From positions 630,001 to 694,000 of the forward strand of contig NZ_ACJX03000001.1 of assembly GCF_000160455.2 (NCBI RefSeq): a stretch of DNA of 64,000 bases, given 5' to 3'. Below the pieces are notes generated by a model. The model had not been told where the DNA came from. It saw nothing but the letters and a program-made list of their open reading frames with translations, and made no database searches. The stretch comes from Acetomicrobium hydrogeniformans ATCC BAA-1850. Its GTDB lineage: Bacteria; Synergistota; Synergistia; Synergistales; Acetomicrobiaceae. A program made the position numbers and the translations under genes. Shown piece by piece: positions 15,448 through 22,982 of the stretch (position 1 is its first letter; every line of letters begins with the position of its first letter).

Positions 15448-16681
15448 CTTCCCCCATAGAGAGCATGTTAGACAAACAAAAAGCAAGATAGGCTTCCAAA
15501 CCTGCGGCAAAAGGAAGCAGGTCTTCCGGTACATCGTACTTCGGATGATGCAACCAATATTTACCTCCAGTCCCAAACAGAAGAAAACATGACGGAATGA
15601 CTTGCGTGTAAAAAGCGAAATCTTCGCCGGCCATCAATGGTCTATCCAAAATCTCCAAGTTCTCGTCTCCAAAAGAGTCACGGGCAATCCTTAAAACTAA
15701 ACTTGTAAGCCTTTCATCGTTTATAACCTGAGGGTAGTTACGATGATATTTAATAGTGCCAAGCCCCCTAAAGGTTTTTGCCAATAAAGGAACCATTTCC
15801 TCCAATCTGTTTTGAAGAAAATCGCGAACCTCTACGTTCAATGCCCTCAGAGAGCCCCACAGGTCTATTTGTTCGGGAATAACATTATGCGCTTCTCCTG
15901 CTTCCAGGTGCCCAAAGGAAATAACGGCGCTTTCCGTAGGGTCTATTTCCCTACCCACTAACGCCTGAGCAGCGAGTATTACATGGGCAATGATCGTCCA
16001 AGGATCTACCGCAAGATGGGGGGCAGCAGCATGGCCACCGACACCTTGAATAGATATGTGAAACCTGTCGGAAAGGGCAGTCATAATTCCGGGCTTCAAC
16101 AATAATTTGCCGTACCCGTATTTGGGCCAAAAATGAAAACCCAAAGCATAATCAATATTATAGCTGTCCAAAAGACCCGCATCAATCAACCGTTTTGCCC
16201 CACCAAGACCTTCTTCGGCTGGCTGAAACACTAACACCACGGATCTGTCGAGCATCTCCCTTCTTTTGGATAAAAGGAGGGCCACGCCCAACAACACCGC
16301 CATGTGGGCATCATGACCACAACCGTGCATTACCCCAGGGATACACGAAGCAAATGTAAGATCGGTTTCCTCTTGAAGAGGCAGGGCGTCCATAGGACAC
16401 CTGATCATTATTGCCCTTCCTTCCCTTTTGCCACTTATTTTTCCTATGACGGCGGTGGTTTCTCCAAAGGCCTGGGTAACTTCAACACCGGGCATGCTTT
16501 TGAGGATTTGGAAAACTCTGGAAGATGTTACCCTTTCCTCAAAGGCCAACTCGGGAAAAACGTGAAATCCTCTTCTCCATTCGACCAATTGATCGTAAAT
16601 ATTGGTTGCTTCTTCAAAAAGATCTTCTTTTGTCTTGAGCCTCTCTTGCTTCGATATTCCCACAACCATCACCGTCGTCAA
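15434..16681 (-). CDS. M20 family amidohydrolase / peptidase
   Basis: A 415-residue zinc-dependent amidohydrolase like N-acyl-amino-acid amidohydrolases, hippurate hydrolase and the indole-acetyl-amino-acid hydrolase group. Metal and catalytic motifs: MHGCGHDAHMAVLLG near residue 112, PAEEGLGGAK near 150, and a dimerisation (lid) domain about 190-305 with GVGGHAAAPH. It probably releases amino acids from N-acylated compounds, in keeping with an amino-acid-fermenting lifestyle. The start is TTG at 16679-16681, which forms a TTGA overlap with the upstream CobB-like gene; ATG at 16669 is an alternative. Confidence 0.9.
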   Translation of the reverse strand: MTTVMVVGISKQERLKTKEDLFEEATNIYDQLVEWRRGFHVFPELAFEERVTSSRVFQILKSMPGVEVTQAFGETTAVIGKISGKREGRAIMIRCPMDALPLQEETDLTFASCIPGVMHGCGHDAHMAVLLGVALLLSKRREMLDRSVVLVFQPAEEGLGGAKRLIDAGLLDSYNIDYALGFHFWPKYGYGKLLLKPGIMTALSDRFHISIQGVGGHAAAPHLAVDPWTIIAHVILAAQALVGREIDPTESAVISFGHLEAGEAHNVIPEQIDLWGSLRALNVEVRDFLQNRLEEMVPLLAKTFRGLGTIKYHRNYPQVINDERLTSLVLRIARDSFGDENLEILDRPLMAGEDFAFYTQVIPSCFLLFGTGGKYWLHHPKYDVPEDLLPFAAGLEAYLAFCLSNMLSMGEDEIG

Positions 16682-18054
16682 CTAAACATTTTTAGCATAA
16701 TTTCGGGATTGCTCCAAAACTCCGGCTTCACCGCAAAGGCCGAAGCATTTCCATACACCCAACCGTCTTCCATCGGAGCTTGAGAACCCTCCTGCTTTAC
16801 AATCCACGTCGGCATGCAATTAAAACCCTTCACCTCAAGCTTAACCCAGGCAGGCCAATATCCTCTCAATGATTTCCCGGTGCGTTTTTCGGAAGATATA
16901 TGTTCGATATTGACTTTATGGCATGGGCCTGAACTCTCTGCATAATAACCCTTGAAAGGGAAAAATGACAAGCCCCTTATCTGATCCCCATTGGGAAGGG
17001 AAAAGGATTCTCCGAATATTGGAGATGATCCCCCTTCGATTAAGAGTTTTCCCTTAACGAGAACAGACGAGAAAGCTTTTGCTAAAGAGCGATTTTCAAC
17101 GAGATCTTTCATAAACACATATCCTATGCCATGGGGAACATATATGAAGTCTAAGTCACTATAATTCGTTATTTCATCATATGGAAGTGATATTACGTCA
17201 TATCCTAGGGCCACCAGCAACTTTTCGTTATTGTCCCCTCCCAAAGCAAGAGCAGGATGATGCACAACTCCAACCTTTCTCTTATCGGAACGATAGCTTA
17301 TATCAAACTCCAACATTTCCACGTTCAATTGTGGTGCGCTACGAGCATGAGCCACAATTACCTCCCACTCGATTTGTCTTTCCATCGCAATGAGCCGAGC
17401 GGCTGAAGTTTTCAACGACAGCAAGGAACGGTTGCCCGACAATTGGCCAACTATGGACAAAAAATCTGGTTTTTGCTTGAAAATAAAACCCGGTATATAA
17501 CCCAAAGCCGTCCATGGAAGATCTCTGCCAACAGATATTTCTAGAAGTTGATACTCCCTAGGGTTTAAGACGGAAGAGAAGGCGACAGCTTTTATCAAAT
17601 TTGAAATGGAGTTAGGCAATTGCCGCGCAAACTCCAAAACGCGCCTTGCAGTTATGGCAGAAGAACCGCTGGAAAAAAACACGGGAATAATAGGGCATTT
17701 CAATTGCTCAGCCACAGACGCCAAAACAGGGTTAACTTTGAGTTTCTCCTCGCTACAACTTCCGAGGGAAGCAAAGAGTATATTTAAACAATCTTCCCGT
17801 GCCGCTGTGACGAACAGTTGTTTCAAGCGGTGTATATTTTCAAGCAAAAGCGAATCCAATACGGTTGCGGGCTCACCGAAAAGGACATACAGCAAAGCTG
17901 CCATATGCTCGTCGATGCCCACTACGAAGGGTTTTATCTTATAACCTGCTTGTTGCAACGCAATGGCCATAATTACACCTGGAGGGATCAACGATTCATC
18001 TCGTTCGTCTGCAAATATAACTCTTGGCATCGAAAAGGTTTTATTGTCACTCAT
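16678..18054 (-). CDS. CobB/CbiA-like protein with lost catalytic motifs (probable pseudoenzyme)
   Basis: A 458-residue protein that aligns along its length with cobyrinate a,c-diamide synthase. An N-terminal dethiobiotin-synthetase-like domain is followed by a class I glutamine-amidotransferase-like domain (about 255-455). The nucleotide P-loop expected after PRVIFA reads DERDESLIPPGV and lacks GKT. The amidotransferase nucleophile position (normally YAECGG) reads LIEGGSSPIFG, with no cysteine. The C-terminal His-x-His after GNASA is also absent, although FWSNPE is retained. No glutamine-dependent amidation is expected. It heads an operon with the M20 amidohydrolase. The role is unknown, possibly ligand binding or regulation. 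Confidence 0.72.
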   Translation of the reverse strand: MSDNKTFSMPRVIFADERDESLIPPGVIMAIALQQAGYKIKPFVVGIDEHMAALLYVLFGEPATVLDSLLLENIHRLKQLFVTAAREDCLNILFASLGSCSEEKLKVNPVLASVAEQLKCPIIPVFFSSGSSAITARRVLEFARQLPNSISNLIKAVAFSSVLNPREYQLLEISVGRDLPWTALGYIPGFIFKQKPDFLSIVGQLSGNRSLLSLKTSAARLIAMERQIEWEVIVAHARSAPQLNVEMLEFDISYRSDKRKVGVVHHPALALGGDNNEKLLVALGYDVISLPYDEITNYSDLDFIYVPHGIGYVFMKDLVENRSLAKAFSSVLVKGKLLIEGGSSPIFGESFSLPNGDQIRGLSFFPFKGYYAESSGPCHKVNIEHISSEKRTGKSLRGYWPAWVKLEVKGFNCMPTWIVKQEGSQAPMEDGWVYGNASAFAVKPEFWSNPEIMLKMFS

Positions 18055-18142: not shown

Positions 18143-18187
18143 AAAAAAACCATGGCCCACGAAATTATTATCTTTAGTGGGCCATGG
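18143..18187 (-). terminator. Rho-independent terminator after the HesB-like selenoprotein gene
   Basis: The 11-bp stem 18150-18160 / 18177-18187 (CCATGGCCCAC and its complement) is followed on the minus strand by seven T residues (A-run 18143-18149). It lies 11 bp after the selenoprotein stop and ends the apgM/PPDK-like/RluA/selenoprotein run. Confidence 0.85.
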
Positions 18188-18197
18188 TATCGACAAT

Positions 18198-18524
18198 TTA
18201 TTTACAGCCCGAGCATCCTGAAGTTGGAAGCATTGCAGACTTTACTATTAGTTTCGACCCCCAAATGGAACGCATTACTTGTATGTCTATGGTATCACTT
18301 TGAAAGGCCATGCCCTTAGGAACCCATAAATCGATATCCCCATCCTTAACCTCAAAGTAATCTTCGAGATTGACCGGCTTCCCGCCCTCAACGAGGGCCG
18401 CATAATAGGAAGATCAACCCCCTCCTATTCTTTTCACCGTAATGTATCCTTCGTTGCCCAACTCTTTTAGCTTTTTGCGAGCACCTTCAGATATAGAAAC
18501 ACCCAATTTAACTATATTTTCCAC
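18198..18524 (-). CDS. HesB/IscA-like selenoprotein (in-frame TGA read as selenocysteine)
   Basis: Reading GTG 18524 to TAA 18198 gives 108 codons with one internal TGA at 18416-18414 (codon 37). The product follows the A-type iron-sulfur protein pattern: a VKLGVSISEGARKKLKELG start, and then GGGU-SSYYAALVEGG where IscA has its first ligand (GCSG). Next come a DGDIDLWVPKG/DTIDIQV segment and a C-terminal GCSGC like the IscA CGC. The TGA replaces the first conserved Cys. Just downstream in the mRNA, GCCCTC-GTT-GAGGGC (18398-18384) nests inside CTTCC/GGAAG, a SECIS-like hairpin at the right distance with a small G/U loop. A GGGGGTG site precedes the GTG. An in-frame nonsense pseudogene is the alternative. 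Confidence 0.8.
18378..18416 (-). promoter_or_regulatory. SECIS-like hairpin in the HesB-like gene
   Basis: Starting at the UGA (18416), the mRNA forms an outer stem 18412-18408 / 18382-18378 and an inner perfect 6-bp stem 18398-18393 / 18389-18384 closing a GUU loop about 22 nt after the UGA. Bacterial SECIS elements have this position, with a G/U in a small apical loop, and recruit SelB. The asymmetric internal bulge is larger than ideal, so computed folding should decide. Confidence 0.6.
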
Positions 18525-18566: not shown

Positions 18567-19490
18567 TTATAGCATACCTATTATGGTATCTAAGGATAAA
18601 TCAAAAAGATTTATCACAGCTGCCAGATCAGCCGGTAATGGAGCGCAAAATTTTTTGCCCGCCAAATAACTCAAATCATTCCCAAAAATTTCCAGAGAGT
18701 AGGCGTGCAGCATTGGCCTTCTTGCTTCTTTGCCGCTGTCGCCGTACTTGACATCGCCAACGATAGGATGCCCGATGTGCGATAGATGAACCCTAAGTTG
18801 ATGGGATCTTCCGGTAATCGGCTCCAATGCCACCAAAGAGGCATGATTTCCTGCCGACAAAGACATGTATCGCGTGGCAGACCTCTTGCCTGCCCCTTTG
18901 TTTACCACCGTCTTGAGGAAACGTTCGTCCCTTTCAAGGGGAGCTTCTATTACGCCTTCTCCGGTTAGACGCCCCCTTACAACGGCCAAATATTTCTTGG
19001 CAACCCTCCTGTTTCTGAACATAGCTGTCAGTGCTCTTAAAGAACGAAAATTTAAGGCTAGGGCCATTACCCCGGATATATTTCGGTCTAGCCTGTGTGC
19101 CGGGGTCGGAATAAAACCTCCCTTAGTTTTATTGATCAAATTGAGTGCTCTATTAACGACCGAGTCATCCTCATTGGATGCCGGTTGGCTCAAAAGCCCT
19201 GCAGGCTTGTTTATTATCAAAACATTTTCATCCATAAATATAACTTCCAAAGGTTTATCCGCTACATTTAGCGAGGGCTTTAGTTTCGCAGGATCTTCAA
19301 AGGGTACGCTGACTTCGTCTCCCCTATATAAACGATAAGAGGGGTCTGTTTTTTCTCCGTTTACGGTGACCCTTCCTTTTCTGATTGCGCGCATAATGGC
19401 ACCCAGGGGTACCTCGCTATATTTCTTTCGCAGGAATCTATCCAGCCTCACGCAATCGTAATCTTCATCTATCTTCCATATTTTCGCCAT
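18567..19490 (-). CDS. RluA family pseudouridine synthase
   Basis: A 307-residue protein with an N-terminal S4 RNA-binding domain (about 10-70) and a RluA-type catalytic domain. The HRLDRNISG motif near residue 130 holds the catalytic aspartate, followed by GRSHQLRVHLSHIGHPIVGD near 220. RluC/RluD-like enzymes make pseudouridines in 23S rRNA; which site is modified is not readable. The ATG at 19488-19490 is chosen as the natural domain start; it overlaps the upstream PPDK-like gene by 26 bp. The selenoprotein gene follows 42 bp downstream. Confidence 0.9.
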   Translation of the reverse strand: MAKIWKIDEDYDCVRLDRFLRKKYSEVPLGAIMRAIRKGRVTVNGEKTDPSYRLYRGDEVSVPFEDPAKLKPSLNVADKPLEVIFMDENVLIINKPAGLLSQPASNEDDSVVNRALNLINKTKGGFIPTPAHRLDRNISGVMALALNFRSLRALTAMFRNRRVAKKYLAVVRGRLTGEGVIEAPLERDERFLKTVVNKGAGKRSATRYMSLSAGNHASLVALEPITGRSHQLRVHLSHIGHPIVGDVKYGDSGKEARRPMLHAYSLEIFGNDLSYLAGKKFCAPLPADLAAVINLFDLSLDTIIGML

Positions 19491-21255
19491 CGCACGTACC
19501 TTTTCTGACGGCAACAATTCCTATATTTCTTGCACAGTCCATATATACATCAAAGGACCCTTTGTATATTTTGATCCCCAGATCTTGCATTTTCTCGCAA
19601 CATGTCGATTCAAACCACTCCTCCCTGAAGACATTCCCCTTCTCCCCTGCGAAGACCGGCATATAGAGAACGTTATCTATTTCCAGATCGGAGTAAAAAT
19701 GGGTACCATAGGAAAGTTCGGGCATAAATCCCAACACGGGAATCCCAACCTCTACGATGCACTTACAGTTGGTTAATTCGCTATATTGAACAGGGATTCC
19801 TAAGGCAGGATTGCTCGATCCAACTCTACCGGGTGCCACCAAAATATAGGAATTAGGATACAACTTCTTATTGATCTCTCCTATGGCTCTCGCAATTTCA
19901 TGCTTATTAGCCGCCGTCACGTATATTTTATGATCAACATATACTAGATATGGCACGTTCTCAAGCTGTCCGTCGGTGACCATTCTGTCTGCCTTGAGAA
20001 TTACAAGCTTACCCTCCAGGTCCCTTTCATCAAATTTCGACTCACAGCAACCCGTCCAAAGAGGCCTGGCCTGCAGCAACTCCAATTTCCTTTCGCTCGG
20101 TTCGTAGGCAAACTCTATATCCACAGGGGCACCCATGGAATCTTCCAAATGCTTAAGAAGTTTTTGCATTCTTGTAAAGAAGTCAGGGTTGTGTCTCGTA
20201 AACCTTTCAAAGGTAATACAAACCTTGCTGTCGTCCTCCTGTTGCCTGAAATAAGATAAATCGAGGTTTTCCCAATAACCGTTACCGTCATCTTCACGAT
20301 ATACCTGGGCATACTCTCCAAGCTCTCTTCCGTAATGCGTCAACAAATAATCTAATATTCCCTTGTCGTTTATGTTATAAGTTACTATGTCTCCTCTATC
20401 TCCATCGATCATTTGAAAGCTCTCCTGGGAATGTCTCATTACGTTGTAAGGATGATTACCCTCCGGCCTAAGATTTGGATTGGAAAGCGAAAAAATTCTA
20501 GCGTAACCACGCCTAGTGCTCATTGTTCCAAGGCCAAATACCAGCCGCAATAAGCCATCTTCTACGTTCAGGCGAGTGCACCACCTTCTCAAGTTTAATG
20601 AATATCCGACTCCTGCTGTAGTTGGGAAATAATAGCGACCCTTCCATTTACCTGAGGCTCGCATGACAATTATTCCCATTTTGTCATCGCCCAATTTGTG
20701 TTTGTTGCGGTATTCCACAGCCGTTGGGAAAAAGGTCCTGGCGTATATTCGCTTTATTTCGTTCTCGATCGCCAAAACTCGTTCGTTTAAGTCTCCGCTG
20801 GCGTGCAGCAGCCGTGATCTGTATTTTCCGGCGAAGGAATATTTGAGCGAATCTTCCAGCATGGACGATGAACGTACTGCAATGGGGGAATCGATACATT
20901 CAAGAAATGAAGCTATACGTTCCCTTACATAACTGGGCAATTCAGCATCAAGAAACCTTTGCTCTATTCTTTCGGGCTCACCCTCCAAGACGTTGTCCAA
21001 ATCATCTATTTGGCTTAAAAATTTATCGAAGGCCTCGATGCTTATAAAAATAGATTCCGGCATCTCCGTAGAAACAAGTTCATCGAAACCACTTTCGAGA
21101 AGGGATTTCATCCCAAAAAGAAGGGACCTTCCCTTTCCGCCGATATGACCGGCTCCCACGATCGAGCTTGCAAAACGATCATCGTTACATGGGTCCCAAG
21201 AAAAATAGCTTGCCAATTTATCCTCTCGCACTCTGCCAGAAACTTCAGAACCCAC
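19465..21255 (-). CDS. PEP/pyruvate-binding (PPDK N-terminal-like) protein, paralog 2
   Basis: A 596-residue protein with a pyruvate-phosphate-dikinase/PEP-synthase ATP-grasp domain. GGKGRSLLFGMKSL lies near residue 40 and the nucleotide motif AVRSSSMLEDSLKYSFAGKY near 120; YAYEPSERKLELLQARPL ends the domain near 395. A conserved C-terminal domain (about 400-590) follows instead of the phosphohistidine and PEP-binding domains of true PPDK, so it cannot be a complete dikinase. It starts GTG at 21255 behind AAAGGAGG, 14 bp after its paralog. Function is unknown; phosphoryl transfer to another partner is one possibility. Confidence 0.85.
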   Translation of the reverse strand: MGSEVSGRVREDKLASYFSWDPCNDDRFASSIVGAGHIGGKGRSLLFGMKSLLESGFDELVSTEMPESIFISIEAFDKFLSQIDDLDNVLEGEPERIEQRFLDAELPSYVRERIASFLECIDSPIAVRSSSMLEDSLKYSFAGKYRSRLLHASGDLNERVLAIENEIKRIYARTFFPTAVEYRNKHKLGDDKMGIIVMRASGKWKGRYYFPTTAGVGYSLNLRRWCTRLNVEDGLLRLVFGLGTMSTRRGYARIFSLSNPNLRPEGNHPYNVMRHSQESFQMIDGDRGDIVTYNINDKGILDYLLTHYGRELGEYAQVYREDDGNGYWENLDLSYFRQQEDDSKVCITFERFTRHNPDFFTRMQKLLKHLEDSMGAPVDIEFAYEPSERKLELLQARPLWTGCCESKFDERDLEGKLVILKADRMVTDGQLENVPYLVYVDHKIYVTAANKHEIARAIGEINKKLYPNSYILVAPGRVGSSNPALGIPVQYSELTNCKCIVEVGIPVLGFMPELSYGTHFYSDLEIDNVLYMPVFAGEKGNVFREEWFESTCCEKMQDLGIKIYKGSFDVYMDCARNIGIVAVRKGTCDGENMEDR

Positions 21256-21269
21256 AACCTAAACCTCCT

Positions 21270-22982
21270 TTAGGTCTCGTCGACAATGACTCCTATTTCC
21301 CTTTCCCCATTTAAATACACTCCGAAATTTCCTTCGTAGATCCTTACGGCTTCATGTTCGCCCACAAAGAAGGGTGTCTTCTCAAACCACTGCTCGTTGC
21401 AAATATTGCCATGCTCTCCGCAAAAAACGGGCAAATAAAGTATCTTGTCTGTGTCGAGGTCAAGGAAGAAGTGAGATCCATAGGACAATTCAGGCACAAC
21501 TCCGGCACTGGGGATACTTACTTCCACTATGCAGCCACATCCCGATATTTCTCCGTATGATACGGGTACTCCAAGCAAAGGATTTGTGCTGCCCCATCTT
21601 CCGGGGCCTACCAATATATACCTTTCTCCCGAAAGCTTTTCGTTTGCCTTCCCTACGGCTCGCGCAATCTGAACGAATTCCCTCATTTCCATATATAGTT
21701 TGGGGTCGACATAGACGAGATGGCGAACACCCATCAACTTTCCGTTGGAAATCATTCTGTTTCCTCGCAATACTATCCGTTCAGACGGTATTTGGGGAAT
21801 CTCCACATCACCCCACTCTTCAAAAGTAGCAAGAGGCCTCATTTGCACTAAAGCGAGCCGATCATCTTCGGTCTCGTACGTAAACTCCAAATCCACAGCA
21901 AGTCCCGCTTTTTCCTCCATCAGCTTCAACAGGCAACATATTTTTTCAAAAAATGTGGAGAATCTGCGAGGAAAGTTGGAGAAAGTCATAACAGGCCACA
22001 TTTTTTGAATATCAGAAACAATACCGCCATGCAGCATATAAAACATCTCTCCGTCGCTCAATTCCAAAAAGGAATAGGCATTTTTGTGGTGAGTAACTAT
22101 GTGGTCTAAGGCCATATCTATTCTGTTGCTTAAAAAGAAACCTCTTTTTAAATCGATATAATCGAATTCGTCTTGAGCATGAGCGATGATATCGCTGGCC
22201 CTGTTGCCCTCGACTCTAAGTCCCGGCAGGCTTAAGTAAAAAACCTTGGCATTAGCCCTTGCTACGGCCCTGGTGCCAAGGCCAAAACACAGTCGCAACA
22301 AGCCCTCCTCTCTTTTTACTCTAGGGCTTGGGCGACGATATACCTTTGAGAAGGCTACTCCGGCTAACTCGGGGTAATACAATTGGCCTCGCTCTCTACC
22401 TACAATTGGCTGTATTATTATGGCCATCCTTTCCTGTGCCAGTTTAATACCGTGTCTTCTGCGATACTCCTTGGCAGATGGGTTGAAAGTGGATGCGTAA
22501 ACTAATTTTATTGCCCTTTCAAACCTGTGAAGTCTGTACTCCAGATCTCCGCTATTTCCAAAAAACCTCGTCGAGTATTTGCCGGCAAAGGAAAAGGCAA
22601 GATCGTCTTCCAGAACTGACGAAGACCTGACTGCCACTGGAGTATCGATATCAAGCAAAATGTTAACAAGGGTATCGCGCAAGCTCTCAGAAAAATTGGC
22701 CGCTTCAAAAGCCCTCTCGATCTCCTCAAAATTTTCGGCACTTCTAACGACGGGCTCTAAATTATTGCGCACCATGAAGTCATTAAATACTTCTGTGGTA
22801 AGAACATAGGACACCCTGGGAAAATCTATACACTTCCCCAAAGGGTTGGTCTGAAGGGCTTCAGCAGCAAAAGCTACTCCCTTTGCCTTGCCCCCTATCT
22901 CACCTTCCCCTATGGACCATTTTTTTGATCGATAGAAGGATGCGCCTTCATAATGTGCATACGGTGCGCTTACCATTGACAT
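21270..22982 (-). CDS. PEP/pyruvate-binding (PPDK N-terminal-like) protein, paralog 1
   Basis: A 570-residue paralog of the next gene with the same architecture. GGKAKGVAFAAEAL lies near residue 30, the VRSSSVLEDDLAFSFAGKY motif near 118, and FTYETEDDRLALVQMRPL closes the ATP-grasp region near 390. The same C-terminal domain follows (GPGRWGSTNPLLGVPVSYGE, ELSYGSHFFLDL). The phosphohistidine swivelling domain is missing. It follows apgM by 26 bp. The pair shares the conserved C-terminal GPGR and SYGxHF motifs, so both halves are under constraint. Function is unknown. Confidence 0.85.
   Translation of the reverse strand: MSMVSAPYAHYEGASFYRSKKWSIGEGEIGGKAKGVAFAAEALQTNPLGKCIDFPRVSYVLTTEVFNDFMVRNNLEPVVRSAENFEEIERAFEAANFSESLRDTLVNILLDIDTPVAVRSSSVLEDDLAFSFAGKYSTRFFGNSGDLEYRLHRFERAIKLVYASTFNPSAKEYRRRHGIKLAQERMAIIIQPIVGRERGQLYYPELAGVAFSKVYRRPSPRVKREEGLLRLCFGLGTRAVARANAKVFYLSLPGLRVEGNRASDIIAHAQDEFDYIDLKRGFFLSNRIDMALDHIVTHHKNAYSFLELSDGEMFYMLHGGIVSDIQKMWPVMTFSNFPRRFSTFFEKICCLLKLMEEKAGLAVDLEFTYETEDDRLALVQMRPLATFEEWGDVEIPQIPSERIVLRGNRMISNGKLMGVRHLVYVDPKLYMEMREFVQIARAVGKANEKLSGERYILVGPGRWGSTNPLLGVPVSYGEISGCGCIVEVSIPSAGVVPELSYGSHFFLDLDTDKILYLPVFCGEHGNICNEQWFEKTPFFVGEHEAVRIYEGNFGVYLNGEREIGVIVDET

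Follow-up and report, generated by a model that had tools for sequence, protein, structure and literature searches.

A probable selenoprotein gene with a predicted IscA-type fold, hidden by an in-frame TGA, in Acetomicrobium hydrogeniformans and other Synergistota

The A-type iron-sulfur carriers IscA, SufA and ErpA share a first ligand cysteine, Cys35 in IscA. Small selenoproteins distantly related to IscA are described as HesB-like (TIGR01911), with the motif UxGP in PMC13188914; mutagenesis together with 75Se labelling revealed the one from Methanococcus maripaludis, the function of which is described as unclear (PMC11097638). PMC13188914 lists a further family, NF041239, as a predicted, hypothetical selenoprotein family with the motif CxxU, and we saw no statement there on its fold. 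Selenoproteins are frequent in the phylum concerned here: PMC5029168 describes the Synergistetes as selenoprotein-rich, with selenocysteine (Sec) used by 13 of 14 organisms, and the deep-Sep paper, which examined Aminobacterium sp. MB27-C1, reports 13 known and no new selenoprotein genes. The locus described below appears to encode a protein that keeps the position of the first ligand cysteine of the A-type carriers, with Sec instead of Cys.

The window that we analysed is the whole stretch of 64,000 nucleotides from Acetomicrobium hydrogeniformans ATCC BAA-1850 (contig NZ_ACJX03000001.1, positions 630,001 to 694,000). Its minus strand forms a single frame from a GTG at 18524-18522 to a TAA at 18200-18198. 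The sole interruption is one TGA, as the first-pass annotation of this DNA had claimed; read-through would give a product of 108 amino acids with no further stop. The list of open reading frames contains no minus-strand frame of at least 60 amino acids at 18198-18524, and the region appears as a gap between the genes on either side. We assigned the following features.

18201-18524, minus strand: coding sequence of a predicted 108-aa selenoprotein with an IscA-like fold, GTG start and one Sec codon (frame, conservation, predicted fold, profile alignment)
18414-18416, minus strand: in-frame TGA, codon 37, probably read as selenocysteine (alignment of homologues)
18384-18398, minus strand: apical stem-loop of the putative SECIS element, GCCCUC-GUU-GAGGGC (folding, conservation, covariation)
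18366-18419, minus strand: longer hairpin holding the UGA and the apical stem-loop (-21.9 kcal/mol, z -2.4)
18198-18200, minus strand: TAA, end of the gene (frame reading)
18143-18188, minus strand: predicted intrinsic terminator, its stem at 18188-18149 being followed by a T run (-25 kcal/mol and z -6.2; none of 200 shuffles did as well)
18567-19517, minus strand: RluA-family pseudouridine synthase, directly upstream (TIGR00005 over cut-off; conserved neighbour)
16678-18054, minus strand: 458-aa protein distantly like CobB, past the terminator (behind the gene in only a subset of relatives)

The terminator right after the gene had also been proposed beforehand and is borne out by its folding energy; a consensus terminator scan did not list this stem on the minus strand. 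A promoter scan was not clearly above chance, with 6 found against 3.7 in shuffles (sd 1.7). Searches of the window with Rfam (nothing at gathering score) and for tRNAs (empty) are uninformative here, because the tRNA-Sec gene sits elsewhere in the genome.

Homologues were found by protein search in 27 of 41 genomes (that of A. hydrogeniformans and 40 relatives), the other 14 being without any match, and profile A1 matches 73 of 185 genomes of the phylum Synergistota. We read the DNA at the site selectively, in 70 of the 107 matches listed for this profile. TGA was present in 55 of these 70 copies, spread over ten families; the remaining 15 comprised two copies with Cys, five syntenic copies with Ser or Arg and eight further copies without TGA. 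In alignment A1, 29 of the 30 rows have TGA at the site and one has Cys (L026, genome G007). The first-pass annotation had suggested comparing homologues with Cys or Sec at this position, and had named scattered stops or frameshifts in relatives as a reason for doubt; the relatives keep the same single TGA. The sequence after it is 93-94% identical to that of close relatives and 64-65% identical to that of two others of the genus. In 9 of 12 pairs compared, dN/dS after the TGA was 0.043-0.196, the other three being saturated or without synonymous change and giving no usable estimate. Before the TGA the ratio was noisy, ranging from 0.28 to 1.85 in the four closest f1 pairs, which have few changes. 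The ratios after the TGA indicate purifying selection on that part of the frame. Some relatives have a second TGA near the C terminus; since TAA closes the frame at this point in close relatives, we took it for the normal stop.

The standard code terminates at codon 37, so that the TGA of the window could be an ordinary stop, left in a pseudogene, separating two unrelated short frames or arising from a sequencing error. We reject this reading as exceedingly improbable: the same TGA recurs across ten families, selection is maintained behind it, a conserved hairpin follows it and, over the 185 genomes, its presence is associated with selA.

This association was seen in the best copy of each genome. 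A selA match was present in 55 of the 58 genomes whose best copy has TGA and in 82 of the 127 others (Fisher p 3.7e-6 over 185 genomes, a value uncorrected for common descent). The three genomes with the TGA form and no selA match, G002, G034 and G040, are 80, 83 and 56% complete; G002 has tRNA-Sec and a C-terminal piece of SelB, and G040 has tRNA-Sec. We observed neither selA nor selB over cut-off in G034, an assembly of 350 contigs, and a marginal tRNA-Sec of 47.4 bits. In the genome of A. hydrogeniformans itself, selB (374 bits) adjoins selA (574 bits), and both selD (330 bits) and tRNA-Sec (79.7 bits) are present; the absence of selB or selC that had been raised as a possible objection is not what we found. 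Its selD (L041, G000:C1:1573181-1574113) also contains one in-frame TGA, consistent with a Sec-containing SelD.

Just downstream of the TGA, where a SECIS-like hairpin had been predicted, the stem-loop at 18398-18384 begins its loop 21 nt after the UGA. The bacterial SECIS model, as given in PMC13188914, has a loop of 3-9 nt, a stem of 4-16 bp, a G in the first two loop bases, a distance of 16-37 nt from the UGA and an energy of at most -7.5 kcal/mol. The hairpin of the window agrees with all of these (loop GUU, 6 bp, 21 nt, -9.1 kcal/mol). Of the 55 TGA copies 43 passed the model, and of 787 control codons, taken from five genes nearby, 52 did, as judged by one script that applied the stem minimum of 4 bp and no 16-bp maximum to copies and controls alike. 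When the offset was fixed at 21 nt, at least four of five pairs formed in 50 of 55 copies, compared with 215 of 2381 control codons. For the longer hairpin (18419-18366), whose energy is modest, 6 of 200 shuffles were equally good. The shorter piece at 18416-18370, on which a fold check had been proposed, has a weak energy (z only -1.2), so that folding energy alone is unconvincing. It is conservation and covariation that convince, and the concern that no stable hairpin might form is answered by them.

The protein motif ALVEG overlaps the stem, and protein conservation alone may therefore explain part of the conservation of the hairpin. For this reason, signs at the codon level are more telling. 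Pair 20-30, formed by position 3 of the first codon in the stem and position 1 of the fifth, covaries at this wobble base: among 53 distinct rows it is C-G in 30, U-A in 19, G-C in 2 and other in 2. The stem Leu codon is CTC in 43 of 47 rows, compared with 21% of 428 Leu codons elsewhere in the same genes; both Cys copies, only two in number, have CTG there. Pairing was 0.88 with the partner arm in place and no higher than 0.63 when the arm was slid along; all 2000 shuffles of the arm stayed below the observed pairing, a lenient test given that the rows are related.

Full-length protein would also result if read-through of the UGA inserted some other amino acid with no Sec system involved, but the complete Sec machinery, the covariation of the SECIS element and the replacement of UGA by Cys in two orthologues leave this explanation with next to no credibility. 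The frame, its conservation, the Sec machinery, the conserved hairpin and the predicted fold are what the analysis establishes, insertion of Sec is inferred, and the locus is almost certainly a functional selenoprotein gene in which TGA encodes selenocysteine.

The best family match of the protein is NCBIfam NF041239 (residues 9-95 of 108, E 6.1e-9, 35.9 bits), labelled as a CC/Se motif family (seleno)protein and as a 'hypothetical protein predicted in Moorella thermoacetica'. Every one of the 30 A1 members has a match to it with an E value of 1 or better. Its curated cut-off of 40 bits is not reached by the window protein and is exceeded in 3 of 41 genomes, and in place of the CxxU motif the window protein has R-I-G-G-G before U37 (GGGU-SS), with no Cys at -3. 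Because the score is under the cut-off and the motif is different, we place the protein on a divergent branch beside NF041239, not within it.

The first-pass annotation had called the gene HesB/IscA-like, and the two halves of this name fared differently. TIGR01911 gave no match to the window protein up to E 10, NCBIfam returning NF041239 only, and the protein has USSY where HesB-like selenoproteins have UxGP. NF038090 (IscA_HesB_Se) was found in 0 of 41 genomes and matched 3 of 30 family members weakly (best E 0.036). We therefore ruled out a classical HesB-like selenoprotein, the likeness being that of a small Sec protein distantly related to IscA. By contrast, the IscA-type assignment was upheld. 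An AlphaFold2 model of the 108-aa protein (pLDDT 84.5, pTM 0.73) retrieved SufA and IscA among ranks 1-10 of a Foldseek search of the PDB (probability 0.89-1.00, with E between 1.1e-3 and 5.5e-2); the other entries among the 50 listed had probabilities <=0.13. Four of the ten, 1nwb, 2apn, 9a4q and 2k4z, we take to be A-type relatives. VIA gave Z 7.2 to SufA and 7.0 to IscA, values that, being below 8, are middling by VIA's own note. In an hhalign profile comparison with E. coli IscA, SufA and ErpA (E 6e-6), Sec37 fell on IscA Cys35, in line with the earlier claim that the TGA lies exactly at the first conserved Cys of A-type proteins. The analogy with IscA therefore holds at the level of fold and key residue, and the modelled protein very probably has an IscA-type fold.

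The window protein has no match to PF01521 (Fe-S_biosyn), so that the Pfam gathering score is not reached, a difference from the A-type carriers; PF01521 weakly matches 10 of 30 family members (E <=1, best 2.3e-5). A PDB sequence search with profile A1 gave two matches only, both at chance level (E 0.78 and 1.5). Overall, we consider it highly likely that the locus encodes a selenoprotein and that this selenoprotein is of IscA-type fold.

In a search for canonical A-type carriers (PF01521), none of the 41 genomes gave one, while 9 of 14 control genomes did. The NifU_N (IscU-type) scaffold is present in 40 of the 41 and SufBD in 27. Two genomes, G031 and G038, have a divergent NifU_N protein and three SufBD matches, unlike most relatives.

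Of the 70 copies read, 44 lie downstream of a gene for an RluA-family pseudouridine synthase with the same orientation. This holds for 25 of the 27 best copies (L001-L027); the sequence available upstream of one of the remaining two is just 29 nt long, and the other (G021) has no RluA neighbour. In many copies a YhaM-like exoribonuclease gene precedes the RluA gene. This order could mean that the selenoprotein serves the upstream synthase and not Fe-S delivery, for instance by acting as a redox or metal partner when RNA is modified. Conserved order may reflect nothing more than a shared operon, however, and exported-looking paralogues occur without an RluA neighbour. RluA enzymes are not known to need a metal or redox partner, which also counts against such a role, and we regard it as improbable. 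On the other side of the terminator, the 458-aa protein bears a distant likeness, far short of the cut-off, to CobB cobyrinic acid a,c-diamide synthase and adjoins the selenoprotein gene in f1 and f6 genomes. Elsewhere in the window, two similar-looking proteins (596 and 570 aa) are encoded next to each other at 19465-22982 on the minus strand; the 596-aa protein matches the PPDK_N domain.

The paralogues without an RluA neighbour, found in several genomes, have an N-terminal hydrophobic, signal-like stretch. Some carry TGA at the site (L028, L029, L030, L102, L124-L127 and L129-L131) and others Cys (L113, L114 and L116-L119). A structure model of one of them placed IscA-type entries first, weakly (E 0.04 to 0.3). 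These paralogues are possibly exported IscA-fold selenoproteins.

The tail of the protein proved more variable than the Sec site. The first-pass annotation had cited two C-terminal Cys (GCSGC) as evidence for IscA. They are indeed present in this species, but GCSGC is not conserved in the family: unlike in the A-type carriers, the C-terminal Cys vary, and 8 of the 36 complete Sec orthologues have no Cys in the tail. The 44 syntenic copies, read by eye, divide into 37 with Sec, two with Cys and five with Ser or Arg at the site. Among the 37, tail Cys are present in 28 and absent in eight, and one copy is cut. The two Cys copies and the four complete Ser/Arg copies all have at least four Cys in the last 24 residues, and every complete syntenic copy without tail Cys has Sec. 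These few events suggest that tail Cys may compensate where Sec has been lost. One genome (G127; L097, G127:C1:2135207-2138960) carries tandem copies, one with TGA and one (copy b) with TGC, encoding Cys, at the Sec site. In genus g17 (G038, G130, G129, G031 and G131; L108-L111 and L115), syntenic orthologues have Ser or Arg at the site despite the presence of selA, and Sec is therefore dispensable there.

These observations suggest a mechanism. A SECIS hairpin in the mRNA just past codon 37 would allow SelB to bring Sec-tRNA to the UGA, and the product would be a 108-residue protein of A-type (IscA/SufA) fold with Sec at the place of IscA Cys35. The selenolate, aided in most species by the Cys-containing tail, could hold iron, some other soft metal or an Fe-S cluster as a thiophilic ligand, which would then be handed on, making the protein an A-type-like carrier in a phylum sample in which no canonical one was found. 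A role as a metal or Fe-S carrier or chaperone with a selenolate ligand is the reading that we favour over a redox enzyme or an RluA-operon function, and we put it forward with some reserve. The lack of conservation of the second Cys motif and the 14 of 41 genomes without a match argue against a full A-type role, and the latter means that the protein is not a universal carrier.

Alternatively, the selenoprotein may be a redox enzyme, its selenol reducing a peroxide, a disulfide or a selenium or sulfur compound and a tail or neighbouring Cys resolving the product where present. PMC13188914 deems most uncharacterised selenoproteins likely to be redox proteins. Within A1, moreover, the Sec site is invariant (Sec or Cys) while tail Cys vary, and some members have UC or CU pairs. 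However, the structure model is IscA-like and not thioredoxin-like, and neither UxxC nor CxxU occurs in the window protein; we consider a redox function possible, if somewhat doubtful. Returning to the carrier reading, its broadest form would be that Synergistota replaced the canonical A-type carrier by a selenoprotein of the same fold, with Sec as metal or cluster ligand and related Sec proteins exported, a scenario that we regard as speculative and rather unlikely. We found no earlier description of a selenolate-ligated Fe-S or metal carrier of IscA fold in the papers that we read.

Selenoproteins are expected in Synergistota, and the gene alone is therefore a modest surprise. More interesting are the predicted placement of Sec on a ligand position, the constancy of the locus, the natural occurrence of Cys and Ser/Arg versions and the existence of relatives that look exported. 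Many genomes of one phylum thereby gain a hidden gene, and the wobble-base covariation provides a clean SECIS signal that could aid annotation. It also links a family listed only as hypothetical (NF041239, in PMC13188914) to a predicted IscA fold with Sec on the ligand site. With natural Cys and Ser/Arg versions at the same locus, and with the tandem copies of G127, the role of Sec becomes directly testable. If Sec binds a cluster or metal, the family would present selenocysteine as a metallochaperone ligand rather than a redox catalyst.
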